Source: Pseudisothecium myosuroides
Taxonomy: Eukaryota > Streptophyta > Bryopsida > Hypnales > Lembophyllaceae
DNA: 64,000 bases
NCBI GenBank assembly: GCA_951799445.1
Contig: OX637288.1
Coordinates: 9,922,501 to 9,986,500 of the forward strand
Reading direction: 5' to 3'
The notes beneath the pieces were generated by a model. That model searched no databases. It was given only the letters and a program-made list of their open reading frames with translations, and was not told where the DNA came from. The translations under genes were made by a program, and so were the position numbers. Shown here in pieces: positions 6,397-32,913 of the stretch; position 1 is the stretch's first letter, and each line of letters begins with the position of its first letter.

Positions 6397-7254
6397 AAGT
6401 GTAGAGAACATAGTTTTTTTCTCAAGAATACAAATGGTTGAGAATGAGCACCATTAAGTTAGAAAAAAAAATTCAAATTTTTGAATTCAAATTTTTTAAC
6501 TATTTTACATAAGTCAAAATGTTCATGTATCCATTTTCTACTAATGTTTGGTCCTTCGAGCTCTATAGTAGTTTGTAGCAATTAATAGTATTGCATAGTA
6601 CAATATTGATTTTATAATCCATTTTAAAGAATTTTAATGAATTTTAATATTTTTTTAAATTTCATTTTTTCTTTAATTTTTAATATTTGTTAAGTTTGTT
6701 TATGATTTTATTAAATTTCTAATGATTTTTTATTCATTTTAATTCATTTTTAATCCATTTTCATGACTTAAACTATACTAATCCAACACAATATTCATAG
6801 TACCTGCAGTATTGGCTGTACTATAGCCAAAAGCAACGTTTTTGAGACAAAAACGTTAAATAATTCTTGCAATAGCCTAACAAGAAATTTGTACTTCTGT
6901 GTCAACACATTTTGGGCAATCAATTAAGTTCGCTAGCTATTGCAATGCTGACCGAGGGTGCTATATTCTGAGCTTTGGAGCATGAGCCCAAGAGCCCAAG
7001 AGCCTGTGAGCCTCAAATTTAGGGTGAATATTTTTTGTAATTTTCAGATGTGGACCTATGACCGTGGATTACAAAAAGTTGAAGTTTTCAATTTTGGAAC
7101 ATACAAATTAAAGGTCTGCAAGGTTTTAAAAAACAAACTAGGATAAAAACTGCCACAGAGTAGAAGACAACGGTAACAAACTATGCAAAGAGAAGATATG
7201 ATAACTATATGGTTAAGGCAATGGAAATACAATAGAGTGCAAGTATCCTCGGGC
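6397..7254. other. Intergenic DNA downstream of the ParB-methylase gene
   Basis: AT-rich. The segment 6,940-7,075 (with GTGGACCTATGACCGTGGAT at 7,051) has an inverted, diverged relative around 33,300-33,560 (ATCCACGGTCATAGGTCCGC). The 3' UTR of the minus-strand gene presumably lies at the right edge. No gene is recognised. Confidence 0.5.
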
Positions 7255-7522
7255 TTAGGTACTACTAGAAGATCCAGATTCAGAGCTCTCAGTAGTGTCT
7301 GATGACTCACTGGTAGAAACTTTCGTGGATTCATCTACAAAAACTAGAACTCGTGGATCTACTGTTCGGGCCTTAGAATGCGGGTTAGGGGCATGAATCT
7401 CAAGCTGCCTGGCTGCTGCTTCAGCATACACTGGTAGCTGAAATGTTTGAGGGGGACTGTGGAAGAAGGCCGGATCTGCAAAGAACGGTTGATGTGATGA
7501 CATCTTCATTTTCGCGCCTTGT
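7255..7522 (-). CDS. Exon 12: C-terminal tail of the ParB-methylase gene
   Basis: The acceptor TTTTTGTAG leads to an 89-residue tail starting QGAKMKMSSHQPFFADPAFF and ending in a serine-rich acidic stretch (SESGSSSST) before TAA at 7,255. I use the donor GTAAGTTT at 7,608; the alternative 5-bp-upstream donor GTAAGTAAG would give a stop. No domain is recognised; it is a likely disordered C-terminus. Confidence 0.55.
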
Positions 7523-7608
7523 CTACAAAAAAACAAGGACAAAATATGAGAATCAATTACAAAAACCAATCTTGAATTCGTGGTTCAGAAGCACAGGGAG
7601 AAACTTAC

Positions 7609-8647
7609 TTACTAAATCGTGATGTCCTTGTCACATTCCTGACCGGCACAACCTCCTCATCCAGGTCAACCAAAACAGCTTTAGAGCTCTGTGGTGTAGG
7701 CTCTGGATTTGCAACGGGACGGTTAAAAGGAGCAAGAAGGGCCTCGTAAATAGGCTTATCCTCCTCTAAAGCCACAATATGCCGCCCACTAGCTCGGCAA
7801 GCGTAAATGCTGGCACCTATAGACATGGAGAGTTGCCAAAGGAGAATTTATTAGAAATTCTTGGAATTCAGCTAATGAAAATCAACAATTATAAGACTGG
7901 TCAAAAATCACAAAACTAACCTGTAGATGCAGAGCAGTCTACAACGACGTCACCAGGCGAGGTCATTCCTTCAATAAGCATTTGCATGAAGGGACGAGCC
8001 TTTTCTCGAGGCCCACACCAAGGGATATTGCCATTCATGGTTTGATCTTCTTTGTTGCAGAAATTTTGCAAAAGGTCGTCTCTGGCCACATCAACGTCTA
8101 CTGCTACATGAGTTGGGACATGTTGGAATGTAAATCGAGAGGTCGATGAGCCAGTTTCAGCCATCACGTATAGTGACATTTTGAACCACTGAGTCTGCAC
8201 CAAGTAAAAAATTAGTAACCAATTCAGAAATAAATTGAACAGAAGTTGAACATGAAGCCAATTCAATAGACTGACAACTATAAGCAGTAGAGGGCTTACT
8301 GTTCCAGTGGGGTTGGCGGGGGATGACAAATGCAATCTATTCGTGCCCCAGTATTCCCGTTCGGACTTAAACCGAAAGGATTTGCAAAATCCCAAGACAT
8401 AGGACATAATGTCCCAGCTGAAAGGGTAGATCACAAGAAGAGCACTAGCGTCGTGTAAATAGTTGCCAGCAAGGTCAAAAACGGCTTGCAAAGTGTCTTC
8501 CGAGAACTTGTTCCACTGTGGGACCGACATTGGTGGATCGGAAACGGTCGGGACTGGTAAACCCTCCGGGACATCAACAATTATCAAGTCTACAGCTGCT
8601 TCTCCTGTAACCACCCCATTGAAGAAGCGTTTCTTGTCCAAAGCATG
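7609..8647 (-). pseudogene. Exons 9-11: beta-class DNA methylase-like domain
   Basis: Exons 8647-8300, 8194-7921 and 7816-7609, with introns of 105 and 104 bp. The first holds AAVDLIIVDVPEGLP, at the place of the catalytic (D/N)PP(Y/F/W) motif IV, followed by a hydrophobic strand DASALLVIYPFSWD. Exon 10 ends GDVVVDCSASTG and exon 11 continues ASIYACRASGRHIVALEEDK. Together these form the AdoMet-binding motif I (usually D-x-F-x-G-S-G) with the following E/D. The order IV before I is that of beta-class N4/N6 methylases (PF01555-like). The catalytic motif is DVPE instead of DPPY/W and motif I has S-A-S-T-G, so activity is doubtful. Nuclear location is inferred. Confidence 0.65.
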
Positions 8648-8798
8648 CTACACACACGTAAGAGTGTTAGGAGCAATTAGCTTAAGGTAGACCTATACTT
8701 GCAATGGCACGATGTAATGAAAACGTGCAGAACTTTGAAGAATATACTAACAAGTTAGCAAGGAAATATAAAAATTTAGCCTAAATTGTATGAAGTAC

Positions 8799-9477
8799 CT
8801 TTTCCAGAAGGTTCTTGACGACCTTAAACGCTAGCGAGACAGGGCCTTTTGCCGATCCAACTAGACTAGTGACTGAAGTATTCAAGATACATTGATCAAC
8901 AGCGGCCACCGCTTTGAAGTCTGCAAGCTGAGGAGGCAGGCCATGCAACAAGTGCGACCGAGTGAGCGAGAAGCCGGAAGAAGTGTCCTTCACGGCTCCA
9001 TCACTCGTCACTTGATCCACCGCCGGAGTCTCCGCTTTTCTCTTCTTCCCCTTCTGCTTGACTTTGGCATCATTCTTGGCCTTCTCTTGTCTTCGTTCTC
9101 TCTTCTTCACTTCGGATTCCTCAAGTTTCTTCTTTGCTGCTTCCAGCTTCTCTTCCTTCTTCTTGTCGGTAGCCTCTCTCTTCTTCAACGCTTTCTCCCG
9201 AGCTTCAGCACCAAGGCCTGCAAATTCGGCTACTTCCGCCTTGAGAATGGGACTCTCCTTAATGCTTTCATAAAGAACTTTTTCTCCGGGCGGTACAAAT
9301 CCATCAGGGCAATCCAAGTACCAGGCGCCAGCTTGAAGATGCCCAGTGGGCTAGCTCTTGTCTTGGGCAGGCGTATACATACAAGCATCGGACGTTCGAT
9401 CCAACCATGTGTTCAAAAATGGCGGTAAATCCACCTTTGAAATGGCTTTCTTTGGGTAAAGTTCGAACTTGAAATAC
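8799..9477 (-). pseudogene. Exon 8: conserved lead-in plus charged linker
   Basis: After the acceptor CTATACAG the frame reads YFKFELYPKKAISKVDLPP, then TPAQDKS, a TAG at 9351-9353, then PTGHLQAGAWYLDCPDGFVP. The sequence either side of the TAG belongs to one frame, so this is a point stop rather than a frameshift. About 60 residues of Lys/Glu/Arg-rich sequence follow (KKREATDKKKEEKLEAAKKK and on), probably a coiled coil or a nuclear-targeting linker, ending in KGKKRKAE. The exon closes KNLLEK at a GTACTT donor (8,798), phase 0. Confidence 0.65.
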
Positions 9478-9597
9478 CTGTATAGAATCCAAATACTTAG
9501 CAATAGAGAGAATCATTCAAATCTTAAGAAACCAAATACCCAGACTCAATGACTAATTCGATATTCACAAACTACCCACAAATAGAGGAGTTCAAAC

Positions 9598-10739
9598 CTG
9601 TAAATGGTTTGCTTCACCGCGAGAGAGGAGTACTTGAATTCCTTGAACAAATCAGCTTTCTTGAACGTGTCACCTCCTTTGAAGACTCCAGCGTATGCAT
9701 GGTCCCACAGTTTCATGCGCCATGCCTCAATGTAGTCAGCAAGTGCCATTGGCTCAGCTAACACCTCCATATTCACGTGAATGTTGTTGGCTTTAATGAT
9801 ATTTTCATATAACTCGAGGGTAGAGTCTTCAAGCTGTGAAATGACAAAGAATAGATGAACATTAAAAATGCAATGCACAATAGAACCTTCCAGAGTCTAG
9901 AGAATACGTCATTTGAAGAGCACTTACCGCGGCATACCAACAAGCCTTCGAAAGAAAGCTTGTGATTTTGTCTCTGTTAGCTGATCTTGGTGGAATACGG
10001 CGTGCCTCACGAGTAGGGGCGGAAGAGTTAATCCACTTGAGCCACTTCACTTTGTGGCGCGTGTCTGCAACTGCACTTGCAATTATTTGCAGCTTGTCAA
10101 GGGTCAACTCCTGGACAGCGTATAAGCTCCAGTGACGTTCAATCTGAGAAGAAACAAATACAAATCAGTATCCTAAAGAAGGTCATGTTGACAACAAATC
10201 CAGAAATTATGAAGACCATGCTCCATGTACCTCTTGCAGCCATTCATCCCCTAGAACAAGAGTTGCCACAGCTTGAATTTTATGGAGTTTCTGGATAAGC
10301 AATCTTGTTGCTTCCATTGTTGCAGCTCGCATCGCTGCAGAAACACCATCTGGAGTAACATCCTTCAGTGGAGTGTCCTCATGGTACTTGCGGGCGGCAG
10401 CGTCTGATGTTGCCGAGATGTCTTGCTGCCAGAACAGTGTCGAAGAACAAAAATCAAGAAATTCAGAAGACACATCATTCTATATATCCGAACCAAACAA
10501 AATTGAATTTGCATAAATTTTGTCAAATACGGAGATTGAAAAATTGTACCTGAAAAATGAAGGATGTGAAAACCTCCGTAGGCATTGTGTATCAAGTTTT
10601 TCGAACATGCTGATGACAAGCCTTTGCTTCCTCCGAGCTCAATAGCTCAGTGAACTTCTCAATTGGCATCGTGCCATACTTGCGAACACGGTACAAGGTA
10701 TGGACAAGATTCGTCTTGACGTGGGAGTTCTCAGTGTGC
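9598..10739 (-). pseudogene. Exons 4-7: middle region of the ParB-methylase gene
   Basis: Four exons (10739-10550, 10425-10231, 10143-9928, 9833-9598) are separated by introns of 124, 87 and 94 bp, all phase 0. Readable segments are HVKTNLVHTLYRVRKYG, MPTEVFTSFIFQ joined to QDISATSDAAARKYHED, IERHWSLYAVQELTLDKLQI, and LEDSTLELYENIIKANNI. The composition is helical, with no membrane segment and no family that I can name. A TGA at 10592-10594 interrupts the frame between HQHVRKT and YTMPTEVF, although the frame on both sides is clearly coding. A CGA-to-TGA change would explain it. It probably links the ParB-like and methylase parts. Confidence 0.6.
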
Positions 10740-10829
10740 CTAAATTATCAACGGAGATCACATAGTTAACCTCCAGCCATACACAACAAAAGAGATCATG
10801 AAATTCAAAGAGAGTAATCAGAGACTCAC

Positions 10830-11003
10830 TAATTTATATCATGCATGACCTGCATGGCCGCAGCAAGTCTTCCTTTTGTATCCAGAACAATAGAATCAAC
10901 TCGGACGTGCCACTTTGGGTGTGCACTGTGAAGCCTATGAATGTGTCGCATCCATGCTAGGCGACGGTGGTTACCATCGCAGATGAAAAACTTTGCGCCC
11001 ACC
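10830..11003 (-). pseudogene. Exon 3, downstream part: DGNHRR core of the ParB-like domain
   Basis: It encodes GAKFFICDGNHRRLAWMRHI, then HRLHSAHPKWHVRVDSIVLD and a helical end MQVMHDIN. D-G-x-H-R-R-x-x-A is the nucleotide-binding loop pattern of ParB/Noc and sulfiredoxin-fold proteins. The donor is GTGAGT at 10,829. Joining it to the acceptor before 10,739 builds a TAG from TA plus G, apparently a third premature stop; a missed alternative junction could avoid it. The 5' boundary is the LTR target duplication at 10,999-11,003. Confidence 0.65.
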
Positions 11004-12291
11004 TGTGAGCTCCCAATTTGTCACTTGGGACTCGTAGAATTATTTTTTTGAAAATTTGCAATTTAAAGTTGATAAAAGTATAGAAAAATCCATAAAAAGA
11101 GTGTAGAACCAAAATAGGGTTGTGTCATACCTATTATAGTATTTGGTCTAGATTTGTGTTTCTTACTTAGAATCCCCCAAATCTTGCCTAAAAATAGTAT
11201 AAAAATAACGAAAAGGTTAGATTTGGAGGATTCGAGTCACACAGCCCCAAAAGGGCTGAATCCCACCATGAAGGTGGCGATTCATGGCTAGGTCGGTCCG
11301 AAGGATCCACAGCGAGGCCACTAGGTCGGGTCCTAGAGTTAGATTTAGAATTCCCCATTAGATCGACGAATTCCCAAAATCCCGATTGTTAGCATGCAGG
11401 AGCCACTCACGCAAGACCGGGCCTGTGGAGGAATCTACAGCCCAAGGATGGTGTTCTAGGGTGAATCCCATGCCAGGAGTCCAACGGCAAAATCGGTTCG
11501 CCAAGATTCCTCCACCTGCAAAAGATTCCCGCACCGTCGTTGATTCAAGGAGATGTCCAGTTAAATCTCCATTGACCAATCGTGCTAGGTACGGAAACAC
11601 ACCCGCACGTCTTTCATGCGACTCCCTGAGAGGTCACGTGAAAAATCCCGGCATCTTCCGACTTGCAGAAGAACCTTTTTCCGGGTGGTCAACCCTCCTA
11701 ACCTCCAACGGGAATTTCATGGAAATTACCCTGGTTACAATAAAATCTCACTAAAAATTAGACTAGCTTGTTTTATGTTAATAATGCGCTCCGTGAAGTT
11801 TCACGACATTCCGATAGCGGCAAGTACCCGAACCGGCGAGATTCCTCGGGAATTAACCACGTGGCGGGGTCCCCGCCACGTTGACCGGCATTCCGGGACC
11901 ATACGATGGCGAAACGAAGTCAACCAAAAGTCCTTCCCGACTCTCTCGCACCTACCGGAGACCCTAGGCTATTCACATTTCTCAAAATAGGAGACCCCCA
12001 AGATCTAGGATTTTATCACGATTTGGTTTTTAAACTAAATTAACCTACGATGGGTTTTTGGCCTCGGTACGGGGGGTAGGGGGATTTAGGACTAAACACG
12101 GCGTTCTGGATCCAACGGCGCAATCCGTTTGGCGATTGGAGCTAATCTCCAAAAGTTAGGATGTTGGTCCAGCATAGATGGTAGAAGTAGAAATTTAGGA
12201 TGTAGGATGAAAATCTTTGAGGATGAGGATGAAAATCCCCGTTGATAAGGTTACCTTAGAACTCTAGAGGGAGGGGTGAGCCCTTGGAAAC

Positions 12292-12300
12292 CTATATAAG
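12292..12300 (+). promoter_or_regulatory. LTR promoter TATA box, copy 1
   Basis: CTATATAAG in a GC-rich context, followed about 25-30 bp downstream by a CT-rich start-like tract (CTCTCTCTAG). The same arrangement is conserved in inverse at 22,619-22,627 in the second LTR. Transcription would run rightward, antisense to the disrupted gene. Confidence 0.55.
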
Positions 12301-12699
12301 GGCCCCATTTCTCTCTCTAGAACACCCCCAATTCTTGTTTTGGGTCCGTGGGTCCAAGTTATTTTGGATATTTTGGCGTTTGAAGCCAAAAACCTCTACG
12401 GTGTTTTCGGAGCACTTTTGGCTCCATTGTTGCTTACTTTCAAGCTTTGAAGGTCCTTGGGGATCCTTCTACCTTGCTTTGTGTACTCTTTTGTGAAGTT
12501 TTTGGTACCTTGTTGTAAGTGGAGAGCCTCTCTCTCCCTCTTGTACGTGTTGTGGTCTAACTTGTGAAGTTTAAGAGTCTTTTTGTATCTTGCACTAATC
12601 CTAAAGTCACCCCCCACCGTACCTTGGCGATGCCGCTTTGGGGGGCCTTTAGCGTGTGAGCTTTGTGTTGCCACGTGGTCTAACTTGTGTGTTTTCTCT

Positions 12700-13100
12700 T
12701 TGTGTTTTTCTTACATCTTCTTCTAACCTTCTCCTTGTTGAGTGGACCCCCCTCCGGGACGGCGAAGCTTTGAACCTCCTTTGTGCATGTTTTCTAAGTT
12801 ATCCCAAACCCTCTTCTAATCTTCTCCTTGTTGAGTGGACCCCCCCTCCGGGACGGCGAAGCTTTGAACCTCATTTGTGCATGTTTTCTAAAGTTATCCC
12901 AAACCCTCTTCTAATCTTCTCCTTGTTGAGTGGACCCCCCTCCGGGACGGCGAAGCTTTGAACTAGTGACAAAGTTGAAGTTCTAAAGCGTGTGTTAAAA
13001 GTGTAGACGGCGGAGCTTTGAACCCCCGAGGTGCTAAGAAGTCCTAAAGTTGGTGTTAAAACCAATCTAACGGCGAAGCTTTGCACCTCCCTCGTGTTTA
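12700..13100 (+). repeat. ~95-bp tandem repeats in LTR copy 1
   Basis: A unit carrying CTCCTTGTTGAGTGGACC and GGGACGGCGAAGCTTTGAAC recurs at about 12,736, 12,830 and 12,925. Degenerate copies of GGCG(A/G)AGCTTTG follow at 13,010 and 13,070. The inverted LTR at 21,880-22,200 carries its own set of the same unit. Confidence 0.75.
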
Positions 13101-13254
13101 GTTCCAAAGTCTAGTTTCCAAGACCTTTGTGGAAACCTCCAGAGTTTAGCTTCCAAGATATGTAGGTTCCTTTGTATTTAGTGAAGTTTAGTTAATCCCA
13201 ACGTTTTCTTTAGTTTAGTTGTTCCCCAAGTTTTAGTGTGTCTAAGTTGCTCCC

Positions 13255-13490
13255 CAAGTGTTTAGTGAGTCTAAGTGTTCCCCAAGTTTTAGTGTGACTA
13301 AGTTGTTCCCCAAGTTCTATTTTCCCCAAGTCTTATTTTCCCCAAGTTCTATTTTCCCCAAGTCTTATTTTCCCCAAGTTCTATTTCCCTCAAGTCCTAT
13401 TTTCCCCAAGTTTATTTTCCCCAAGTTTGTTTTCCCCAAGTTCTATTTTCCCCAAGTTTTATTTTCCCCAAGTTTTCTTTCCCTTAGTTC
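13255..13490 (+). repeat. ~15-bp TTCCCCAAGTT repeat tract in LTR copy 1
   Basis: TTCCCCAAGTT(C/T)TATT recurs about 14 times with small changes. The long frame through it (13,258-13,701) is repeat-driven and not a gene. Confidence 0.8.
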
Positions 13491-13544
13491 ACCAAAAATC
13501 CAGTTTGCCCAAAAATCCAGTTTTCCCTTAGTAGTCAAGGTCCA

Positions 13545-13670
13545 GAGCCAAAACAGACCAGATCAAGTCGAGAACCAAACAGACCAGATCAGTCGAGAAC
13601 CAAACAGACCAGATCAAGTCGGGAGCCAGAACAGACCAGATCAAGTCGAGAACCGAACCAGACCAGGTCA
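13545..13670 (+). repeat. ~28-bp AGACCAGATCAAGTCGAGAACC tandem tract
   Basis: About four copies of a unit with CAGACCAGATCA and GTCGAGAACC. The second LTR has unrelated simple repeats (TATGCTGG) at the matching place, so this internal block evolves faster than the flanks. Confidence 0.7.
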
Positions 13671-15239
13671 CATCATCCAAATATCAAAAGAAAACAAATA
13701 AATAAATTATTTATTTATTTATTTTTGAACCCGACCCCCCAACAGCTAGCCAGCCAGCCGGGAGGCCGGGCTTGGTCCGGCAGGCAGTTGGGGCCCCAAT
13801 TTGGTCCCCATTTTTGAACTCCTTTTTCTTGATTTTTGGTTTCTTTCACACTAGATAAACAAAACAAAGGAAAATGGGGGGCTGACCTATTGCTAAGTAG
13901 GGATTAGGGTCTAAAATCAAAAAGGGAGAAGGGAGAAAAGAGCGGAGCACCACCGTACCTGCACACAAGGAAGTCTCACCCTCACCAACAACTATAAAAC
14001 ACTCTACACACAATGGAGGAAGGATAGAGAACAATCGAATGAAATAGGGGAGAGGGAGAGAGACGATAAATAGTGACCTAGGCTTAGGCTTAGGTAGGAT
14101 TAGAAAAGGAAATCTTGAGAATTCGTGGTGACCGTTGGGAGGAGGATTAGGATGACACAAAGGCAAAATTGTGTAAGAGGGTAGTTGGCATCTTAAAAAC
14201 CTCCTTGAAATTGGAGACCATAGTGTAAGACTCATAAAAGCTTAGGTGGAATAGTACTAGTGTAGAAGAAGGGAGGAAGAAAGAAAAAGAAGGAGGAAGG
14301 GAAAGAAGGAAGTTAGATTGCAAGGGCGTAATATTTTCTCAAATTAAGCGGTGAGCTTGGGAAAAATCAAACAAAACAAAGGATTGCTATGGAGCATGAG
14401 GATGTCTACGTGGACGTGGACGAAGTGATTTCCGAAACCGGTAGTGAAGAGGTGAGTTTTTGAAATTAACCCTTGGTATTTTCCCTAATTAGCATTGATT
14501 TCCTTAATCAGCCCTAAAAGTGTGATTAGCGAGCCGTGATTAGTGCAAAGTAGAAGTTTAGATTCAAAAGTCTATAGATTAGTGATAGGGGTTTCCGAAA
14601 ACATCTTATAATTAAGATTTGACCGTAAACTGACCGCGTTAGGCTAAGTTAAGCGGTAGGGGGTAGGACGGAGGAATTTTGAGTAGAAATCATCCAAAAA
14701 GAATCATGGACGGACCTTAGGGGTTTAAATTAGAAAGAGAATTTAGGATTAAAATTAGGGATTAATTAGCGGTTAGAATTAGAATCAATTTACATTTTAT
14801 TTCTTAAAGTTAAAATTCTAAGGTCAAAATCTAGAGTTAACTTTGGGAAGTTAAAAAGTAGAATTAATTTGGAAGTTTAACTTAGGGGATTAAAATTTCC
14901 AGTGAAACCTTAGGGTAGTTTAGAAAAGGAAGTTAGGGTTAATTAGGAGTAAAAAATTCCGAGTGGGAAGTAGAAATTAAAAAGTAAAACTTTGGACTAC
15001 ATTTAGGAGGTAGAAATTACGAGTAGATTTTTAGTTAGAAATAGAGTTAAAATTAGAAGGCAAAACTCAGAGTAAATTGTGGAAGTAAGTTTAGAAGTTA
15101 AGCCCTAGAGTTAAAAGTTGGAATTAAATTTAGGAGGATAACACTTTGAGTTAAACTAGGATTAAAACGATAGGATTAAAGTTGGAAGTAGAAAGTCAAA
15201 AGTCAAAAGTCAAAAGTTAAGATTAAATTTAAAGGTTAA

Positions 15240-15530
15240 ATCTTAGAGTTAATTTAGGAGTAAAAACTTAGAGTTAAAAGTTAAAACATAGAGTTAAAAT
15301 TCAAGGGTAAATCTTAGAGTTAATTTAGGAGTAAAAACTTAGAGTTAAAAATTAAAACATAGAGTTAAAATTCAAGGGTAAATCTTAGAGTTAATTTAGG
15401 AGTAAAAACTTAGAGTTAAAAGTTAAAACATAGAGTTAAAATTCAAGGGTAAATCTTGGAGTTAATTTAGGAATAGAAACCTAGAGTCAAAAGACAAAAC
15501 ATCGAGCACAAGTCGGTAGTTAATATGTAA
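15240..15530 (+). repeat. ~71-bp tandem repeat in LTR copy 1
   Basis: A unit containing TCTTAGAGTTAATTTAGGAG starts near 15,241, 15,312, 15,383 and 15,454. It lies in a longer region (14,700-15,560) built of AGTTAAAA/TTAGAGTT words. The inverted LTR has the complementary word bias at 19,540-20,130. Confidence 0.75.
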
Positions 15531-15985
15531 GAATCAAGTTAAAGAAGTAAAATCTAGAGTTACATTCCGAAGTTGGAACTTTAGAGGTAGTTTTTAAAAG
15601 TAGAACTTCTAGGTGGAGTCTTAGAAATCCAAGATAGTCTTAGGGGTTCATGGAAGGAACATAGGGGCTCCCCTTTTTACGTAGTTAGGGACGTTATAAA
15701 TGAGGCCAACTACTCAGTCGACCCTCGACATAGGATAGATAGTTAGGGAGTTCGGATTTCACCATCACTCTGAACATCGCAGTTAACTTGTGAGTTACTA
15801 CATGCATTACTAATTATTTGCTGCCATCCACGACACTTAGGAAACGTTAGCAAAAAAGATCCATTGCTTGGAAGGCACAGTGGACCGCGCTCACATCACC
15901 CCCATATATTAAAAAATGTGGATAAAGGCATAGAACCTGGTCGGTGTTCGCTTTATTACCAAGGGTGGGTAATCTTGCGCCCACA

Positions 15986-16487
15986 CCACCAAGTGTTTCA
16001 AGTCCGGTTGACTGCTAAGGTAAACGTCAAATTCATCGTTTACAGCATTCCAAAGGGGTCCCCAGTCGGACTTCTCTGCATGAGAAAATGTCCCCGTCTG
16101 CCCTCCCTCGTCCGAAACTGAGACATAAAATACTCGAGCACCAACTTCATAGCCGTGAACATAGTCTGCCTCCAACTGCACCAAATCACATTCTAAAGTG
16201 GGCCTAACCATGGGCATAGGAACAAGACGACATAGCGGGATGTCCATCCTTGAGAGATGGTGTGGTTGGATGCGCATACTGGTGATAGTAGAAATATAAT
16301 CCATCTTCTGTTTCCTGCGGATGTCATCCTCATCCATGATCTTCTCACCATTACGAGACTGAAGGCCCTCACCTACAGGTTCAACTCTAGCACATTCCAC
16401 GGAATTGATGGACTCAGGTGGTCCACCAGCTTCATCTTGAAGCAGAGTCGGAGATGAATTCTCAGTCAATGTATTGGTGAGCATGTT
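15986..16487 (-). pseudogene. Exon 3, upstream part: start of the ParB-like domain
   Basis: The exon opens after GTATTCAG with NMLTNTLTENSS. It runs through a glutamate-rich stretch to VRPTLECDLVQLEADYV, FYVSVSDEGG and ends DLKHLV at 15,986. Read onward it runs into the LTR and stops at 15,909. Joining 15,986 to 10,998 instead, which removes the LTR and one copy of its 5-bp duplication, continues in frame as LVGAKFFICDGNHRRLAW. This join is the strongest evidence that both pieces were one exon. The segment before the DGNHRR motif would be the first half of a ParB/Srx-like fold. Confidence 0.7.
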
Positions 16488-16758
16488 CTGAATACAATTG
16501 AAAATGTGTTTAGTATAAAATGAGCAGATTTGTTGGAAAATTATAATCCCGATGACGCAGTATCATTTACCAACGATGGAGTATAGGTTATTGATGAAAA
16601 ACAAAATGCTTGAACATGGAATAGTCACTTGAGCTCAATAGTCGATTTTCACTTCAATTTAGAGATACATGTCCACAAGTGCACTTCAATATTCCTAAGC
16701 GAAAGCTTAAAAATTTGTCCACAATATAGTTGGCCTCAGACTCCGGAGACTAATCTAC

Positions 16759-16983
16759 ACCAAATGTGAGATGATTAGAAGCCACTGGAGAATCAGGAAG
16801 GATGCAAACTTCTTCATTTGAGCCCAATGACGTACAACAGGACCATATAGATTCGACGTCCGAATCATCCTCTAGGTCCCTTAATAGAGCATCAAGATTT
16901 ACCAGGCGCCTCAATGGAGTAGGTTGAACTGTGGTCATATCAGTGGCATCAGGAACCTCCATGTCTTCTACCGTGAGGGGGAT
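16759..16983 (-). CDS. Exon 2 of the ParB-methylase gene
   Basis: The acceptor TTCTGCAG precedes ATCCCCCTCACG. The 75-residue segment is acidic (VEDMEVPDATDM, DLEDDSDVESIW) and ends about ASNHLTFG. The frame then meets TAG at 16,750, so I place a donor at GGT|GTAGAT (16,758), which gives phase 0 into exon 3. That donor is poor and the true splice may differ. No domain is recognised; it looks like a disordered N-terminal region. Confidence 0.5.
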
Positions 16984-17138
16984 CTGCAGAACCAAAAATT
17001 GAGGCCCATGTCAGACTACACTAACTGCAGAGAAAGTGGTAGACCAATTTCGAAGAATTACAAAAACTCCCCTACTAGGCGATTACCAAGAACATAATCT
17101 TAAGATCAGATAATAAATCGTGAATAATTGATGGGGAA

Positions 17139-19145
17139 AAATGGGGAAGGGATTTGATCCACCCTCCCCCGAATCAAAATCGATGGACTAAGCCTTCTTT
17201 TTTCAAAACAGATGCAACACTGAGCCTTCCCCGGGGGAGCTCTCGGTGGCGAGAGGGCTCCCCCATAGTCACGCGGTCGGCAACCAAAAATGGGGAGGGG
17301 ATTTGATCCCCCCTCCCCCGAATCAAAATCGATGGACTAAGCTTCTTTTTTCAAACGAATGCAACACTGGATCTACCATGGGGGAGCTCTCGGTGGCGAG
17401 AGGTCTCCCCCCTAGCCTCACGGTCGGCAAAAAAAAATGGGGAGGGGATTTGATCCCCCCTCCCCCGAATCAAAATCGATGGACTAAGCCTTCTTTTTTC
17501 AAAACAGATGCAACATTGGGCCTTCCCCGGGGGAGCTCTCGGTGGCAAGAGGGCTCTCCCCAAGCCTCGCGGTCGGCAAAAAAAAGTGGGGAGGGGATTT
17601 GATCCCTCCTCCCCCGAATCAAAATCGATGGACTGAGCTTCTTTTTTCATAACGAATGCAACACTGGTTCTACCCCAAGGGAGCTCTCGGTGGCGAGAGG
17701 GCTCCCCCCTAGCCTCACGGTTGGCAAAAAAAATGGGGAGGGGATTTGATCCCCCTTCCCCCGAATCAGAATCGATGGACTGAGCTTCTTTTTTCAAAAC
17801 GAATGCAACAGTGGTTCTACCCCGGGAGAGCTCTCCGTGGCGAGAGGTCTCCCCCCTAGCCTCGCGGTCGGCAAAAAAAAGTGGGGAGGGGATTTGATCC
17901 CCCCTCCCCCAAATCAAACACAACGGACTGAGCTTCTTTTTTTAAAACGAATGCAACAGTGGTTCTACCCCGGGAGAGCTCTCCGTGGTGAGAGGTCTCC
18001 CCCCTAGCCTCGCGGTCGACAAAAAAAAGTGGGGAGGGGATTTGATCCCCCTCTCTCGAATCAAAATCGATGGACTGAGCTTCTTTTTTCAAAACGAATG
18101 CAAAACTGGTTCTACCCCAAGGGAGTTCTCGGTGGCGAGAGGGCTCCCCCCAAGCCTCGCGGTCGGCAAAAAAAACTGGGGAGGGGATTTGATCCCCCCT
18201 CCCCTGAATCAAACACGACGGACTGAGCTTCTTTTTTTAAAACAAATGCAACACTGGGCCTACCCCGGGGGAGCACTCGGTGGCGAGAGGGCTCCCCCCT
18301 AGCCTCGCGGTCGGCAAAAAAAAATGGGGAGGGGATTTGATCCCCCCTCCCCCAAATCAAAATCGATGGACTGAGCTTCTTTTTTCAAAAAAGATGCAAC
18401 ACTGGGCCATCCCCGGGGGAGCTCTCGGTGGCAAGAGGGATGCCCCCTAGCCTCGCGGTCGGCAAAAAAAAATAGGGAGGGAATTTTATCCCCCCTCCCC
18501 CGAATCAAACACGACGGACTGAGCTTCTTTTTTCAAAACGAATGCAACAGTGGTTCTACCCCGGGGGAGCTCTCGGTGGCGAGAGGGCTCCCCCCTAGCC
18601 TCGCGGTCCTCACCAAAAATGGGGAGGGGATTTGATCCCCCCTCCCCCGAATCAAACACGACGGACTGAGCTTCTTTTTTTAAAACGAATGCAACACTAG
18701 GCCTACCCCGGGGGAGCTTTCGGTGGCGAGAGGGCTCCCCCCAAGCCTCGTGGTCGGCAAAAAAAATGGGGAGGGGATTTGATCCCCCCTCCCCCGAATC
18801 ATAATCGATGGATTGAACTTCTTTTTTCAAAACGAATGCAACAGTGGGCCTACCCCGGGGGAGCTCTCGGTGGCGAGAGGGCTCCCCCCAAGCCTCACGG
18901 TCGGCAAAAAAAAGTGGAGAGGGGATTTGATCCCCCCTCCCCCGAATCAAAATCGATGGACTGAGCTTCTTTTTTCAAAACGAATGCAACACTGGGCCTA
19001 CCCCCGGGGAGCTCTCGGTGGCGAGAGGGCTCCCCCCTAGCCTCGCGGTCGGCAAAAAAAAATAGGGAGGGAATTTGATCCCCCCCCTCCCCCGAATCAA
19101 AATCGATGGACTCAGCTTCTTTTCTCAAAAAAGATGCAACACTGG
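17139..19145. repeat. 148-bp GC-rich satellite array, left block (about 14 units)
   Basis: ATTTGATCC marks recur at 17301, 17448, 17597, 17744, 17892, 18040, 18187 and 18335, a spacing of 147-149 bp. Each unit contains two hairpin-forming blocks: GGGGAGGGGAT against ATCCCCCCTCCCC, and GGGGGAGCTCTCG against CGAGAGGGCTCCCCC with loop GTGG. Two subtypes alternate irregularly, AAAATCGATGGACTGAG and AACACGACGGACTGAG. The block lies in intron 1 of the ParB-methylase gene. Many short frames cross it only because 147 is a multiple of three. Confidence 0.9.
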
Positions 19146-21269
19146 TGTGGGCGCTAGATTACCCACCCTTGGTAATAGAGCGAACACCGACCAGGTTCTA
19201 TGCCTTTATCCACATTTTTTAATATATGGGGGTGATGTGAGCGCGGTCCACTGTGCCTTCCAAGCAATGGATCTTTTTTGCTAACGTTTCCTAAGTGTCG
19301 TGGATGGCAGCGAATAATTAGAATGCATGTAGTAACTCACAAGATAACTGCAATGCTCAGGGGTAATGGTAAAATTCTAACTCTCTAACTATCTATCCTA
19401 TGTCGAGGGTAGACTGGGTAGTTGGCGTCATTTCTAACGTCCCTAACTATGTAAAAAGAGGAACCCCTATATTCCTTCCATGAACCTCTAAGACTATCGT
19501 GGGATTTTAAGACTCTACCTAGAAGTTCTACTCTAAAGACTGACTCTAAAGTTTAACTCTGACTCTAATCTTCAACCTCTAAATGAAATTCTAGATTTTT
19601 ACTCTTTTAACTTGGGTTTAAATATTAACTACCGATTTTTAACTCTAGGTTTTTACTCCTAATTTAACTCTGAAATTTATCCTCGGAATTTAACCTCTAG
19701 GTTTGACTCTACGTTTTCACTTTGACTCTAGATTTTTTCTACTAACTCTAAAATTTTACTTCTACTTCGAACTTTTAACTTCTACTTTTAGCTTTTCACT
19801 CTCACTTTTTACTCCCCAATTGACTAAAATTTAACCTTTTAATTTAATCTCAACTTTTGACTTTTAACTTTTGACTTCTACTTCCAAATTTAATCCTATC
19901 GTTTTAATCCTAGATTAGCTCTAAACGTTATCCTCCTAAATTTAATTCCAACTTTTAACTCTAGGGTTTTGACTTCTAATTTTAACTCTATTTTTTAACT
20001 CAACAATCTACTTCCTAAGTGAATTCTACTTTTGCCCTCTATTTCCTATTCTACTTTTTACTTCCCAAAGTTAACTCCAAATTCCGACTTTGGGATTTTA
20101 ACTTCCCTAATTAAAATCTTAATTTAACTCTAGGTTTTCAACCGTTAATTGATCTTTAATTTTTATCCTAAATTCTCCCTCTAATCTAATCCTAATTTCC
20201 GTCCATTGTTTCTTGTGGTTCCCTTTTAATTAAAATTCCTCCGTTCTACCCCCTACCGCTTAACCTAGCCTAACGTGGTCAGTTTACGGTCAAATCTTAA
20301 TTATAAGATGTTTTCGGAAACCTCTATTCCTAATCTATCAACTTTTGACTCTAAACCTCTAATTCACGCTAATCTCGGATGCTAATCACGCTCTAAGGGC
20401 TGATTAGGAAAATAAGTGCTAATTAGGGAGAAACGACTAGGATTAGTTTAATGACCCACCTCGTTACTGCTAGTGTTGGAAATGACGTCATCCCAGTCCA
20501 CATGCGCGTCCTCGTGCTCCATGGTGGCCACTCGCGATTGTCTTCTTTTATTTTTGTGTTATGGTCTTTATTTATTTTATTTTATTAAGGCCCACGGCTT
20601 AAGTTGTAGAAAAGAAAACGTTACAAGTATGATGTTCTAACCCTTTCCCCCCATTTCCTTCTCCTTTTCTTTCTCTCCTCCTCTTCCTTCTACTCTCGAA
20701 CTATTCCACCAACCGTGGTGATGGTGGTCTTACGCTTCTAGTCTCAAACTTCGTGAAGTTTTAATGAGCCTCCTACCCTCTTACGCAACTTTGCTTTGTG
20801 TCATCCTAATCCTCCTCCCAACGGTTGCAAGGAGTTCTTCCAGATTTCCTACCTAATCTCCTAGCTAGGCACTATTTATCGTCTCTCTCCTCTCCACTCC
20901 TATAACACATCCTTTTCCCTAATTTCCTTCCATTGTGTGTAGGTGTGAGTGGTGATGCAGGTAGGATCGGATGTTTTTGTGCAGGTGGCGCGTGGGGCGG
21001 CAGCTTCTATTTCTTTCCCCCCTTTTTGCTATGGTGTTTTTGAAGTTCCAAGTTGAGTTTTTTTCCCTTCCCAACTGGATTCCAAAATTTCAGACTTTAG
21101 AAGATCTAAAAAAAAAAAAAAAAGGGGTGGTTAGGGCCCCGCAGGGCATCGTCCCGTTTAGTTCTGGAAATCCAGAAATTAGCTCAGTTAGCCAAGCCGA
21201 CTGGCCCGATGGCTGATGTTCAGTTCAGTCAACCGACCAGCCCGATGCTGATGTTCAGTTCAGTCAACA

Positions 21270-21465
21270 GACCGCCCGATGTATGCTGGCTGTATGGCTG
21301 GCTGTATGGCTGGCTGCCGGCTGGTCTGGTATGCCGGTCCGGTATGGCTGGCTGTATGCTGGCTGTATGCTGGCCGGTATGCTGGCCCGGTATGCTGGCT
21401 GTATGCTGGCTGTATGCTGGTCGGTATGCTGGCCCGGTATGCTGGCTGTATGCTGGTCTGGGCAC
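21270..21465 (+). repeat. TATGCTGG/CTGGCTG microsatellite in LTR copy 2
   Basis: About 20 imperfect copies of (G)TATGCTGGC(C/T)G. They give long frames in several phases, which I do not treat as genes. Confidence 0.85.
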
Positions 21466-22618
21466 TAGCTATCATTCCAAAAAAAATCCACACAACCGGG
21501 TTCCCTTAGGGGAACCCACTAACACAACTTTTAAATTGGATTTTTAGTAAGTGGTTAGGGCTAGGATCGAAGCTTCGCCGTCCGGGGAGTGAGGCCCCAA
21601 ATTTTAGAGCGGTCACCTAGGCTAAGTGTTACGGGATGGTCACTCTCTCCCTAGAACTCGTGACCAATCTTGGAAGCTAAACTCTGGACTTTTCCAAGAA
21701 AGTCTTGGAAACTAGACTTTGGAATCTAAGGCTATGGAGGTTCAAGGCTCCGCCGTAAAATTGGTTTTAACACCAACTTTAGGACTTGTAACACTCCACG
21801 GGTTCAAAGCTCCGCCGTCTAAGACTATTTTAACACACACTATAGGACTTGACGTGGTCACTAGTTCAAAGCTTCGCCGCCGTGGGGGGTTTTCACACAA
21901 CAAGGGGAATATTAGAAGAAGGTAGAAAAGACAAAGTTAAGGAACACACGTGACGAAGCCAAAGCTTCGCCGTCCCGAGGAGGGTCCACGCAACAAGGGA
22001 AGTATTAGAAGAAGGTAGAAAAGACAAAGTTAAAGAACATACGTGACAAAGCCAAAGCTTCGCCGTCGTAGGGGGGGTCCACACAACAAGGGGAGTATTA
22101 GAAGAAGGTAGAAAAGACAAAGTTAAAGAACACACGTGACAAAGCCAAAGCTTCGCCGTCCCGAGGGGGGGTCCATACAACAAGGGGAAGATTAGAAGAG
22201 GATGAGAATACACAAGTGAGGAAAACAACACGGTTAGGACACGTAAAGACACACAACTTCACAAGCTAAAGGCCCCCCAAAGCGGCATCGCCAAGGTACG
22301 GTGGGGGGTGACTTTAGGATTAGGACAAGACACCAAAAGACTCCTAAACTCACAAGTTAGATCACAAAGGAACTACAAGAGAGAAACAAGGGCTCTTAAC
22401 TCGTAACGAAGGTATAACAAACGCACAAGAAGTACACAAGGCAAGATAGAAGGACCCCCTAAGGACCTTCAAAGCTTGAAATCTAGCAACAACGGAGCAA
22501 AAAGTGTTCCAAAAACACCGTAGAGGTTTTTGGCTTCAAACGCCAAAATATCCAAAGCAAATTGGACCCACGGACCCAAACAAAAGTGAGGGGGTGTTTT
22601 AGAGAGAGAAATGGGGCC

Positions 22619-22627
22619 CTTATATAG
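22619..22627 (-). promoter_or_regulatory. LTR promoter TATA box, copy 2
   Basis: CTTATATAG on the plus strand is the inverse of the TATA motif of copy 1, in the same surrounding sequence (GGGCCC, AGAGAGAGAAAT). Transcription would run leftward. Confidence 0.55.
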
Positions 22628-23917
22628 GTTTCCCAAGGGCTCACCCCTCTCTCTAAAGCTCTAAGGTAACCTTATCAACGGGGATTTTCATCCTCATCCT
22701 CAAAGATTTTCATCCTACATCCTAAATTTCTACTTCTATCATCTATGCTGGACCAACATCCTAACTTTTGGAGATTAGCTCCAATCGCCGAACGGATTGC
22801 GCCGTTGGATCCAGAACGCCGTGTTTAGTCCTAAATCCCCTACCCCTCGTACCGAGGCCAAAAACCCATCGTAGGCTAATTTAGTTTAAAAACCAAATCG
22901 TGATAAAATCCTAGATCTTGGGGGTCTCCTATTTTGAGAAATGTGAATAGCCTAGGGTCTCCGGTAGGTGCGAGAGAGTCGGGAAGGACTTTTGGTTGAC
23001 TTTGTTTCGCCATTGTATGGTCCCGGAATGCCGATCAACGTGGCGGGGACCCCGCCACGTGGTTAATTCCCGAGGAATCTCGCCGGTTCAGGTACTTGCC
23101 GCTATCGGAATGTCGTGAAACTTCACGGAGCGCATTATTAACATAAAACAAGCTAGTCTAATTTTTAGTGAGATTTTATTGTAACCTGGATAATTTCCAT
23201 GAAATTCCCGTTGGAGGTTAGGAGGGTTGACCACCCGGAAAAAGGTTCTTCTGCAAGTCGGAAGATGCCGGGATTTTTCACGTGACCTCTCAGGGAGTCG
23301 CATGAAAGACGTGCGGGTGTGTTTCCGTACCTAGCACGATTGGTCAATGGAGATTTACAACTGGCCATCTCCTCGAATTAGCGACGGTGCGGGAATCTTC
23401 TGCAGGTGGAGGAATCTTGGCGAACCGATTTTGCCGTTGGACTCCTGGCATGGGATTCACCCTAGAACACCATTCTTGGGCTGTAGATTCCTCTACGGGC
23501 CCGGTCTTGCGTGAGTGGCTCCTGCATGCTAACAATCGGGACTTTGGGAATTCGTCGATCTAATGGGGAATTCTAAATCTAACTCTAGGACCCGACCTAG
23601 TGGCCTCGCTGTGGATCCCTCGTACCGACCTAGCCATGAATCGCCACCTTCATGGTGGGATTTAGCCCTTTTGGGGCTGTGTGACTCGAATCCTCCAAAT
23701 CTAACCTCTTCGTTATTTTTATACCATTTTTAGGCAAGATTTGGGGGATTCTAAGTAAAAAACACAAATCTAGACCAAATGCTATAATGGGTATGACACA
23801 ACCCTATTTTGGTTCTACACTCTTTTTATGGATTTTTCTATACTTTTATCAACTTTAAATTGCAAATTTCCAAAAAAATAATTCTACGAGTTCCAAGTGA
23901 CAAATTAGGAGCTCACA

Positions 23918-26900
23918 ACTGGGCCATCCCCGGGGGAGCTCTCGGTGGCGAGAGGGCACCCCCCAAGCCTCACGGTCGGCAAAAGAAAGTGGGGAGGGGA
24001 TTTGATCCCCCCTCCCCCAAATCAAAATCGATGGACTGAGCTTCTTTTTTCAAAACGAATGCAACACTGGGCCTACCCCCGGGGAGCTCTCGGTGGCGAG
24101 AGGGCTCCCCCCTTGTCTCGCGGTCGGCAAAAAAAAATGGGGAGGGAATTTGATCCCCCCCCTCCCTCGAATCAAAATCAATGGACTGAGCTTCTTTTCT
24201 CAAAAAAGATGCAACACTGGGCCATCCCCGGAGGAGCTCTCTGTGGCGAGACGGCTCCCCCCTAGCCTCGCGGTCGATAAAAAAAAATGGGGAGGGGATT
24301 TGTACCCCCCTCCCTCGAATCAAACACGACGGACTGAGCTTCTTTTTTTAAAACAAATGCAACACTGGGCCTACCCCGGGGGAGCTCTCAATCGCGAGAG
24401 GGCTCCCCCCTAGCCTCGCGGTCGGCGAAAAAAAATGGGGAGGGGATTTGATCCCCCTTCCTCCGAATCGAAATCGATGGACAAAGCTTCTTTTTTCAAA
24501 ACAAATGCAACACTGGACCATCCCCGGGGGAGCTCTCAGTGGCGAGAGGGCTCCCCCCTAGCCTCGCGGTCGGCAAAAAAAATGGGGAGGGGATTTGATC
24601 CCCCCTCCCCCGAATCAAAATCGATGGACTGAGCTTCTTTTTTCAAAACGAATGCAACAGTGGTTCTACCCCGGGGGAGCTCTCAGTGGCGAGAGGGCTC
24701 CCCCCTAGCCTCGCGGTCGGCAATAAAAAGTGGGGAGGGGATTTGTACCCCCCTCCTCCGAATCAAACACGACGGACTGAGCTTCTTTTTTTAAAACGAA
24801 TGCAACACTGGGCCTACCCCGGGGGAGCTCTCGGTGGCGAGAGGGCTCCCCCTAGCCTCGCGGTCGGCAAAAAAAATTGGGGAGGGGATTTGATCCCTCC
24901 TCCCCCGAATCAAAATCGATGGACTGAGCTTCTTTTTTCAAAAAAGATGCAACATTGGGCCATCCCCGGTGGAGCTCTTGGTGGCGAGAGGGCTCCCCCC
25001 TAGCCTCGCGGTCGGCAAAAAAAATGGGGAGGGGATTTGATCCCTCCTCCCCCGAATCAAAATCGATGGACTGAGCTTCTTTTTTCAAAAAAGATGCAAC
25101 ACTGGGCCATCCCCGGGGGAGCTCTCGGTGGCGAGAGGGCTCCCCCCAAGCCTCGCGGTCGGCAAAAAAAAATGGGGAGGGGATTTGATCCCGCCTCCCC
25201 CGAATCAAAATCGATGGACTGAGCTTCTTTTTTCAAAACGAATGCAACACTGGTTCTACCCCGGGGGAGCTCTCGGTGGCGAGAGGGCTCCCCCCTAGCC
25301 TCGCGGTCGGCAATAAAAAGTGGGGAGGGGATTTGTACCCCCCTCCCCCGAATCAAACACGACGGACTGAGCTTCTTTTTTTAAAACGAATGCAACACTG
25401 GGCCTACCTTGGGGGAGCTCTCGGTGGCGAGAGGGTTCCCCCCTAGCCTCGCGGTCGGCAAAAAAAAATGGGGAGGGGATTTGATCCCTCCTCCCCCGAA
25501 TCAAAATCGATGGACTGAGCTTCTTTTTTCAAAAAAGATGCAACACTGGGCCATCCCCGGTGGAGCTCTCGGTGGCGAGAGGGCTCCCCCCTAGCCCCGC
25601 GGTCGGCAAAAAAAAATGGGGAGGGGATTTGATCCCTCCTGCCCCGAATCAAAATCGATGGACTGAGCTCCTTTTTTCAAAAAAGATGCAACACTGGGCC
25701 ATCCCCGGGGGAGCTCTCGGTGGCGAGAAGGCTCCCCCCTAGCCTCACGGTCGGCAAAAAAGAATGGGGAGGGGATTTGATCCCCCCTCCCCAAATCAAA
25801 ATTGATGGATTGAGCTTCTTTTTTCAAAACGAATGCAACAGTGGTTCTACCCCAAGGGAGCTCTCGGTGGCGAGAGGGCTCTCCCCTAGCCTCGCAGTCG
25901 GCAAAAAAAAATGGGGAGGGGATTTGAACCCCGCTCCCCCGAATCAAACACGATGGATTGAGCTTCTTTTTTTAAAACGAATGCAACACTGGGCCTACCC
26001 CAGGGGAGCTCTCGGTGGGGAGAGGGCTCCCCCCAAGCCTCGCGGTCGGCAAAAAAAAGTGGGGAGGGGATTTGATCCCCCCTCCCGCAAATCAAAATCG
26101 TTGGACTGAGCTTCTTTTTTTAAAACGATTGCAACATTGGGCCTACCCCGGGGGAGCTCTCGGTGGCGAGAGGGCTCCCTCCTAGCCTCGTGGTCGGCAA
26201 AAAAAAAATGGGGAGGGGATTTGTTCCCCCCCTCCCCCGAATCAAAATCGATGGACTGAGCTTCTTTTTTCAAAAAAGATGCAACACTGGGCCATCCCCG
26301 GGGGAACTCTCGATGCAAGAGGGTTCCCCCACAGTCACGCGGTCGGCAAAAAAAATGGGGAGGGGATTTGATCCCCTCTCCCCCGAATCAAACACGACGG
26401 ACTGAGCTTCTTTTTTTAAAACGAATGCAACACTGGTTCTACCCCGGGGGAGCTCTCGGTGGCGAGAGGGCTCCCGCACAGTCACGCGGTCGGCAACCAA
26501 AAATGAAGAGGGGATTTGATCCCCCCTTCCTCGAATCAAAATCGATGGACTGAGCTTCTTTTTCAAAACAGATGCAACACTGGTTTTACCCCGGAGGAGC
26601 TTTCGGTGGTGAGAGGGCTCCCCTTAAGCCTCGCGGTCGGCAAAAAAAAATGGGGAGGGGATTTGATCCCCCCTCCCCCAAATCAAACACGACGGACTGA
26701 GCTTCCTTTTTCAAAACAATTGGAACACTGGGCCTACCCCGGGGGAGCTCTTGGTGGCGAGAGGGCTCCCCTTAAGCCTCGTGGTCGGCAAAAAAAAATG
26801 GGGAGGGGATTTGATCCCCCCTCCCCCGAATCAAACACGACGGACTGAGCCTTCATTTTTCAAAACGAATGCAACACTGGGCCTTCCCCGGGGGAGCTGT

Positions 26901-27093
26901 CGGTGGCGAGAGGGCTCCCCCCAAGCCTCGCGGTCAGCAAAAATAAATGGGGAGGGGATTTGATCCCCCCTCCCTGGAATCAAACACGACGGACTGAGCT
27001 TCTTTTTTCAAAACAGATGCAACACTGGGCCATCCCCGGGGGAGCTCTCGGTGGCGAGAGGCTTGGGCTCCACCACAGCCACGCGGTCGGGAG
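23918..27093. repeat. 148-bp GC-rich satellite array, right block (about 21 units)
   Basis: Continuation of the array after the LTR, with the same unit, hairpins and two subtypes (CAAAATCGATGG and CAAACACGACGG). The last unit decays near CCACGCGGTCGGGAGTTG at 27,090, about 90 bp before the exon 1 donor. Together with the left block this is roughly 5.2 kb, about 35 units. Units look similar in divergence across the block, consistent with ongoing homogenisation. Confidence 0.9.
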
Positions 27094-27181
27094 TTGAATC
27101 GAAATTTGGGGGATGTAACTCCCGCTCTCCGACTGAAGACACGATCTAAACTAGGTATTGCAATGGGAAATGACTCCATAC

Positions 27182-27265
27182 CTCCAAGTTCGGAGCTTGT
27201 TCTTTCGCTGGGACTTGGCGTGGTTCCTCCCTTTTGGCGTGCTCTCTCCCACTCCGAGTTTCCAT
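27182..27265 (-). CDS. Exon 1 of the ParB-methylase gene (start exon)
   Basis: The ATG at 27,265 opens a short basic peptide beginning METRSGREHAKREE and ending APNLE. The donor follows directly (GAG|GTATGG at 27,181). Frame is kept (phase 0) into exon 2. The frame stays open upstream of this ATG to about 27,330 with a TTG, so a longer N-terminus in a further exon is possible. The peptide is highly charged, with no signal peptide or membrane segment. It is separated from exon 2 by a 10.2-kb intron made almost wholly of satellite and LTR sequence. Confidence 0.5.
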
Positions 27266-31700: not shown

Positions 31701-32383
31701 AATTCTGGTTTTGTCCGGATGATATCAAGTGTTGCGTGATGGGTCTGAGGAGGTCTCATGTTCTCAGTCGACCAAGAATTCTTGATGTCTGGCCAGTCTT
31801 GATTGGAACAGCCCTCTCTTCTGACGAGATTATTCTCTTTGAAGAAGCAGGCTTCCACTTGCAAGAGCGACCTTCTTTGTCTCCACGACGGCTGTTTACC
31901 TCTTCAAAACTTTTTGAAGTTGTGGAGTGGACCTATGCCAGACCTCTTCACGCTGACAAGCCTCCGTGCATCCGCAATGGAAAAAACATTCGCAGAAATG
32001 AGAAGGCACCCACTGAAGATCACCGGAACCAATGGGAGAGTACCCGGAATGTTACAGGGAATATCCTTGGAGTGAACATTTTGCCGTATCCCGGACTCGG
32101 AGCTGTCATCACCCTTCAATCAGGAGTTGAACCTCATCACATGGTATATCGAGTCACTATTTCCAATTTTCCATCTTGCACTTACTTGTATTTCACTGGT
32201 ATGGTGTCTGCATCTATTGGGAAGCGAGGGAAATATGTCAATTGCAAACATCTATATTACATTTTCCGATACTTGTGCAAGGTGGACCAGAAGAAGGACA
32301 AGTTCATTCATGCACCAAGCTTTAGTATGGATGAGGTCATGAAACTACTAGAAATGGCAGGGATGATGAAGAATACTTCCTGA
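28751..32383 (+). pseudogene. MULE/FAR1-like transposase with SWIM finger, frameshifted
   Basis: The ATG in GCCATGGCT opens 543 codons. An N-terminal region of unknown fold leads to a zinc-binding region near residues 297-382 (SCAGHLTCKNEECDYL, CKVCKLPPTC, GTHNHPV), like the WRKY-GCM1/FLYWCH fingers of Mutator-type transposases. At a G8 run (30,331-30,338) the frame breaks. The next frame continues at once as GGLANCWLMFDHVKRVKSW, then FKGFMADSAHANWNAVRIVY and FHWATSMKQHTERLI, the transposase core. A phase-0 intron (30,907-31,009) precedes DLSTDELADIPSCSLFETV. A SWIM-type finger lies near the C-terminus but reads C-T-Y instead of C-x-C before NCKHLYYIF. One extra G, or two fewer, restores the frame, so a sequencing error cannot be excluded. 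It may be an autonomous MULE relic or a decayed domesticated gene. Confidence 0.75.
30907..31009 (+). other. Intron of the MULE-like gene
   Basis: GTACGT donor directly after GGFMET, pyrimidine-rich 3' end and ATTGTGCAG acceptor; 103 bp, phase 0. The frames on both sides join as GGFMET-DLSTDEL. Confidence 0.8.
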
Positions 32384-32845: not shown

Positions 32846-32913
32846 TGCAACACTGTCAACCTCGTGGGGGGCTCTCGGTGCCGAGAGGGCCCATTTTGGA
32901 TGCCAGTGTTGCA
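32846..32913. repeat. Orphan hairpin related to the 148-bp satellite
   Basis: TGCAACACTG at 32,846 and its inverse CAGTGTTGCA ending at 32,913 enclose GGGGGGCTCTCGGTGCCGAG followed by AGGGCCC. The satellite units carry GCAACACTG, then GGGGGAGCTCTCGGTGGCGA, in the same order and spacing. This is a single diverged copy outside the array, about 6 kb from it, arranged as a compact inverted repeat. Confidence 0.65.

Follow-up and report, generated by a model that had tools for sequence, protein, structure and literature searches.

Here we report that a minus-strand gene in a 64,000-nucleotide stretch of the genome of the moss Pseudisothecium myosuroides (contig OX637288.1, positions 9,922,501 to 9,986,500; this whole stretch is called the window below) is almost certainly element-borne, as one of the two genes of a multicopy transposon with terminal inverted repeats (TIRs). 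The gene, referred to here as ParB-methylase, joins a part predicted to adopt the ParB/sulfiredoxin (Srx) fold to an amino-methyltransferase-like domain, an arrangement that is supported in the window and likewise in those paralogues that could be read across the two parts. The copy in the window is itself a pseudogene. The explanation that fits best, which we regard as roughly an even call, is that it represents a dead copy of a transposon accessory gene whose product would act on the element's own tandem array and counteract silencing, in the manner of the VANC protein of Arabidopsis VANDAL transposons.

Copies, ends and plan of the transposon

Exon-level matches to the methylase half number at least 190 at E <=0.001 in the 388-Mb genome; the matches listed show 39-99% identity and fall in at least 41 named places besides the window. 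Their number and dispersal reject a single-copy domesticated gene. An earlier interpretation made from the letters alone (the sequence-only reading) had offered a domesticated or an element-borne origin, of which the second stands, in the form of a multicopy TIR transposon, while domestication was not shown. Among 23 aligned loci of the lineage that includes the window copy (clade A), 21 share the homology end ...CAAAATAGCACCCCCG with no more than 3 mismatches (17 exactly), and beyond this end the 21 have 20 distinct flanks. The opposite end, CAACGACGCTAAATTGTGAGCC, is common to the C6, C2 and window copies. In these three the ends form imperfect TIRs, identical at 28, 26 and 29 of 43 positions, respectively, against a maximum of 22 of 43 in 2000 shuffles of each (mean 10.8 for the window copy). 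The elements so delimited measure 12,747 bp (C6), 13,811 bp (C2) and 26,594 bp (window). Two loci, L017 and L018 (C4, 14.738 and 14.809 Mb), are near-identical element copies that lie about 70 kb from each other, point in opposite directions and have the same flank; they constitute an inverted duplication.

Mutator-like (MULE) transposons combine TIRs with target-site duplications (TSDs) of 8-11 bp. The C2 copy is flanked by a 9-bp TSD, TCTGTACAA, and the window copy by a 10-bp TSD with one mismatch, identified by eye (Table 1); these lengths of 9-10 bp we take to be of MULE size. MULE-type TIRs are thus accompanied by a TSD of that size in three of the five copies in which both ends could be read together, one of these TSDs being A-rich and one carrying the mismatch.

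The element is built of two genes diverging outward from a central tandem array. Besides ParB-methylase there is a second gene, a presumed transposase, whose relatives give a weak SWIM match (E 0.15-0.37). The same gene order, exon plan and orientation recur in a second lineage, clade B, which is about 50% identical; its C8 element is 19,239 bp long, has the 9-bp TSD AACAAAAAA, and when compared with clade A piece by piece is 36-55% identical in the second gene and 45-64% in ParB-methylase. Some observations weigh against this assignment: no TSD was found in two of the five copies (C6 and the clade-B copy on C2), the clade-B TSD of C8 is the A-rich one, searches with the second gene gave no match to any transposase model or Pfam MULE family, and one piece of it matched nothing in the PDB.

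The repeat unit of the array is 148 bp in clade A versus 245 bp in clade B, and despite this divergence both units contain the palindrome CTCTCG-NNNN-CGAGAG, one clade-B unit carrying CTCTCGGTACCGAGAG, a perfect 16-bp palindrome. The window holds 18 such palindromes, 17 of them in the array, versus none in 100 shuffles; as the array copies sit in repeats they are not independent, and the weight lies in the sharing of the palindrome by two diverged units. A GGGGAGGG..CCCTCCCC stretch, compared by eye, is also common to both. A single palindrome lies off the array at 32872-32887 of the window, with the second gene on one side and the element end on the other, and single off-array palindromes occur in loci L043 (3667) and L046 (3622).

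The ParB-methylase gene and its product

Read on the minus strand from 16487 to 7255, exon pieces with GT-AG ends and matching phases join in frame into one chain that carries FFICDGNHRRLAW, then DLIIVDVPEG, then GDVVVDCSASTG, so that the three motifs named by the sequence-only reading do follow one another within a single gene. With the insert removed, the chain of 1095 codons contains three internal stops in addition to the final one, versus an average of 56.5 over 200 shuffles. The same reading had counted about 11 introns; nine short ones (86-151 bp) were found, because the largest supposed intron (15985-11004) is a 4982-bp insert inside the ParB exon, with TGTG..CACA ends and GGTGG TSDs on both sides. 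The empty site of this insert continues in frame and the splice end earlier used there is a chance GT within it; an intron at this place, and with it a set of eleven true introns, is rejected. Both this insert and a second copy of it inside the array are called solo-LTR-like (LTR, long terminal repeat), a label that is taken from the insert ends (TGTG..CACA, TSDs); both are unusually long (4.8-5.0 kb) and contain internal minisatellites. At exons 8-12, most of the 23 clade-A loci (the window copy is one of the 23) retain the splice sites, and several copies have lost single splice sites or whole exons. The three in-frame stops and the insert make the window copy a pseudogene; that this copy works is not supported.

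Open copies exist elsewhere in the genome. The copy on C5 is stop-free in exons 2-11 over 1005 codons, its last exon not being found in place, and in clade B the C8 copy has an uninterrupted frame of 1083 codons that runs from the same exon to a final stop. For 12 frameshift-free clade-A copies, the ratio of nonsynonymous to synonymous divergence (dN/dS) in exons 8-11 had a median of 0.229 (0.155-0.752) in the 63 of 66 pairs whose dS fell within 0.05-2; the median dS across all pairs was 0.478. Five of these copies lack stops in the same exons as well, and their ten pairs gave 0.164-0.378, dN/dS being raised by copies that have decayed since insertion. Judged by these ratios, ParB-methylase is under purifying selection and looks kept working across copies of the element.

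For the ParB part, an AlphaFold model of a homologue shows the same fold as solved ParB/Srx members, so that the fold proposed from the letters is upheld by prediction. Its DGNHRR motif has G, N and H invariant in 63 homologues and D and the first R nearly so. The protein database holds 421 unnamed homologues of the ParB part or exon, and none of the 120 ParB-exon relatives listed, at 49-73% identity, has a Pfam domain. Against this fold must be set a best Foldseek E of 0.058 and the failure of profile and database searches to match the ParB part significantly to any known family. PF02195 and its relatives, which had been expected, gave no significant match (PHROG ParB, weak, 0.2), and a weak DndB match (0.032) was seen in 2 of 63 members of the homologue set. 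A PDB search with a profile of the ParB part returned no match; phages yielded none either, and plasmids two at chance level.

The methylase part of the window copy matches PF01555 at E 7e-4 with 20.0 and 18.8 bits, below the curated cut-off, while the clade-B copy reaches 27.3 bits against a cut-off of 26.7; the expected PF01555-like match was thus obtained above threshold for the clade-B copy. Matches of the window copy include CcrM (4.2e-6) and DpnA (0.01) in the PDB, the NCBIfam CcrM model (2.3e-5) and PHROG methylases (2.1e-5). Among phage proteins, 244 records match at E <=10, all 20 listed being annotated as methylases, and the first-listed aligns colinearly with 96% of the query (24% identity, E 5e-3). 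Viral contigs yielded no relatives. Two more searches gave no match, one perhaps because Lys/Glu-rich words crowded its candidates, the other made with the methylase part of the whole protein. Motif IV precedes motif I, which is followed by an acidic motif II, in agreement with N6_N4_Mtase (PF01555), and profile, PDB and phage matches together bear out the amino-methyltransferase-like domain and the motif order that had been proposed. Motif I is mostly DC[ST]AS.., and almost every copy that remains in frame retains the acidic residue of motif II. Less favourable to this assignment are the weaker matches of the clade-B protein to CcrM (PDB 0.8, NCBIfam 0.0035), with DpnA at 0.0021 in the PDB, and the result of a three-row profile, which gives CcrM 0.0019.

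Motif IV of N6_N4_Mtase proteins is usually (D/N/S)-P-P-(Y/F/W), and in the two phage relatives that were read it is DIPYN and DIPYG. Across the 23 clade-A loci it reads DVPEG in 17, DVSEG in two, and DVPKG, DVPED, DIPEG and DVLEG in one each, so that D-V/I-P-E-G is found in 18 of 23 as well as in both clade-B copies read (DIPEG in each). The fourth place is Glu in 22 clade-A loci, Lys in one and aromatic in none; neither these loci nor the two clade-B copies conform to the aromatic pattern. Because motif IV is without this usual residue, catalysis is doubtful on sequence grounds, and activity cannot be assumed.

Table 1. Positions in the window of the transposon and its parts
Feature	Position	Strand	Remarks
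Whole transposon copy	6953..33546		26,594 bp, both solo-LTR-like inserts counted; sharp ends common with C6 and C2 copies
TSD, right flank	6943..6952		GTCAGCATTG on minus strand; 1 mismatch to left flank
TSD, left flank	33547..33556		GTCAACATTG on minus strand; flanks compared by eye
TIR beside ParB-methylase 3' end	6953..6995		29/43 identical to other end
TIR, other end	33504..33546		
Possible 5' exon (MEVPDATD...)	16750..16983	-	Similar DNA in two other copies; candidate joining only
ParB exon, first part	15986..16487	-	ParB-methylase gene; 5' end uncertain (start codon or one more exon)
Solo-LTR-like insert in ParB exon	11004..15985	-	4982 bp, TSD GGTGG
ParB exon, second part	10830..10998	-	
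DGNHRR motif (ParB box II-like)	10961..10978	-	Read from sequence
Exon	10550..10739	-	In-frame stop 10592-10594; another stop across its 5' junction
Exon	10231..10425	-	
Exon	9928..10143	-	
Exon	9598..9833	-	
Exon, Lys/Glu-rich stretch	8799..9477	-	In-frame stop 9351-9353
Exon, methylase-like domain begins	8300..8647	-	
Motif IV, DVPEG	8561..8575	-	
Exon, motif X-like stretch and motif I	7921..8194	-	DCSASTG at 3' end
Exon, motif II-like IVALEED	7609..7816	-	
Last exon and stop codon	7255..7522	-	
148-bp tandem array, first part	17137..19145		
First of 17 array palindromes, CTCTCG-NNNN-CGAGAG	17240..17255	+	
Second solo-LTR-like insert, inside array	19146..23917	+	4772 bp, TSD ACTGG
148-bp tandem array, second part	23918..27061		
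Second gene, presumed transposase	28748..32383	+	CxC..CxH near C-terminus in relatives; candidate span, exon structure tentative

Elsewhere in the window, a plant-type resistance gene occupies 52480-56306 on the minus strand, where 55143-56306 encodes an NB-ARC region with a Roq1-like winged helix and 52480-54303 is a long open reading frame of leucine-rich repeats containing 141/282-bp tandem repeats. In the assembly, the small contigs C108, C131 and C147 (loci L001-L005) carry PF01555 methylases, L001 with bacterial/prophage-style open frames; these contigs are probably contaminants.

Possible action on the tandem array and known relatives

In Arabidopsis, VANC is reported to recognize short motifs that recur in rapidly changing tandem repeats of the element encoding it, and to lift silencing (PMC5735166; PMC10398659). 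Like the VANDAL elements, which are MULEs, the moss element is a DNA transposon that pairs a transposase (here presumed) with an accessory protein and has a short repeat-borne motif in noncoding DNA; its array, lying between divergent genes, fits VANDAL/VANC-type action. It differs in that its repeat motif is a palindrome, a putative binding site, and no ParB or methylase domain is known in VANC. By analogy, we tentatively suggest, at somewhat less than an even chance, an anti-silencing mechanism in which the ParB-type part would settle, perhaps in the form of a dimer gated by nucleotide, on the element's own palindromic array between both promoters, while the methylase-like part, binding S-adenosylmethionine (SAM) whether active or not, would mark the element or compete with host silencing. 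Both element genes would then stay expressed, a VANDAL/VANC-like effect reached through a different protein. It counts against this proposal that the promoters or the presumed transposase, rather than this protein, could be what makes use of the palindrome.

The protein might alternatively be a transposition helper that binds the array to join the ends, or marks replicated or unreplicated copies, with silencing not its target; the divergent pairing with a presumed transposase, kept in both lineages, and the placing of palindromes between the genes, with one closer to an end (32872), speak for such a role, but the TIRs hold GAGC repeats rather than the palindrome, and we think it rather unlikely. 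Unlikely, too, is an active N6-adenine or N4-cytosine methylase modifying element or host DNA. Purifying selection has preserved the motif IV Asp, in most copies its Pro, the acidic residue of motif II and the stretch resembling motif X, and the nearest matches are adenine methylases, yet Glu (or, in one clade-A locus, Lys) stands where the two phage relatives have Tyr; the missing aromatic residue likewise undercuts the suggestion of the sequence-only reading that the gene could be a source of N6-methyladenine (6mA) or N4-methylcytosine (4mC). A captured bacterial or host gene riding as a passenger without function for the element is highly improbable: Mutator-like elements are prone to picking up fragments of host genes (PMC6446971), but the same gene, exon plan and orientation recur in two lineages that share about 50% identity, and the purifying selection seen within clade A (dN/dS near 0.2) argues against it.

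A bolder reading, which we consider unlikely, is a nuclear ParB-parS-like system, with nucleotide-gated loading at palindromes in the element's own array, clamp spreading and delivery of the methylase-like domain. If true, the plant transposon would label itself as non-silenced (or replicated) by means of a DNA mark or a SAM-bound scaffold of a kind not known from plants.

Comparable proteins are known from other settings. A ParB-CTPase survey (PMC12704722) describes fusions in bacteria, archaea and phages, among them PF02195+PF01555 fusions (ParB-CTPase fold and N6_N4 methylase) in phages; in eukaryotes, according to that survey, the most frequent form is Srx. The phage fusions unite the same two folds in one protein, but the moss protein, of about 1080 residues, has a long middle region, is encoded by an intron-bearing gene and resides in a plant transposon. 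Sulfiredoxin, a small redox enzyme, is likewise a eukaryotic ParB-type fold, from which the moss protein differs by DGNHRR and its methylase partner. DIRS retrotransposons carry a Dam-like adenine methylase, PF05869 (PMC3783388). They are alike in being eukaryotic mobile elements with an amino-methylase-like domain and differ in being retroelements with another methylase family. To our knowledge they have no ParB fold. Bdelloid N4CMT and the 4mC enzyme of the liverwort Marchantia are described as host epigenetic enzymes of bacterial type, the latter as having no extra domains at its N or C terminus (PMC8885841); they share with the moss gene the presence of bacterial-type amino-methylases in eukaryotic genes, and differ in serving the host.

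A literature search that covered few subscription papers and no bioRxiv preprints found no report of a ParB-methylase combination in a plant transposon, and as far as this search shows, the gene would be the first ParB-fold/amino-methylase fusion described for a eukaryotic transposon. Since intact copies exist, its binding and activity are directly testable. The finding bears on whether the disputed plant 6mA and 4mC have element-encoded writers, and points to a way, possibly a second one beside that of VANC, in which a plant transposon may evade silencing.

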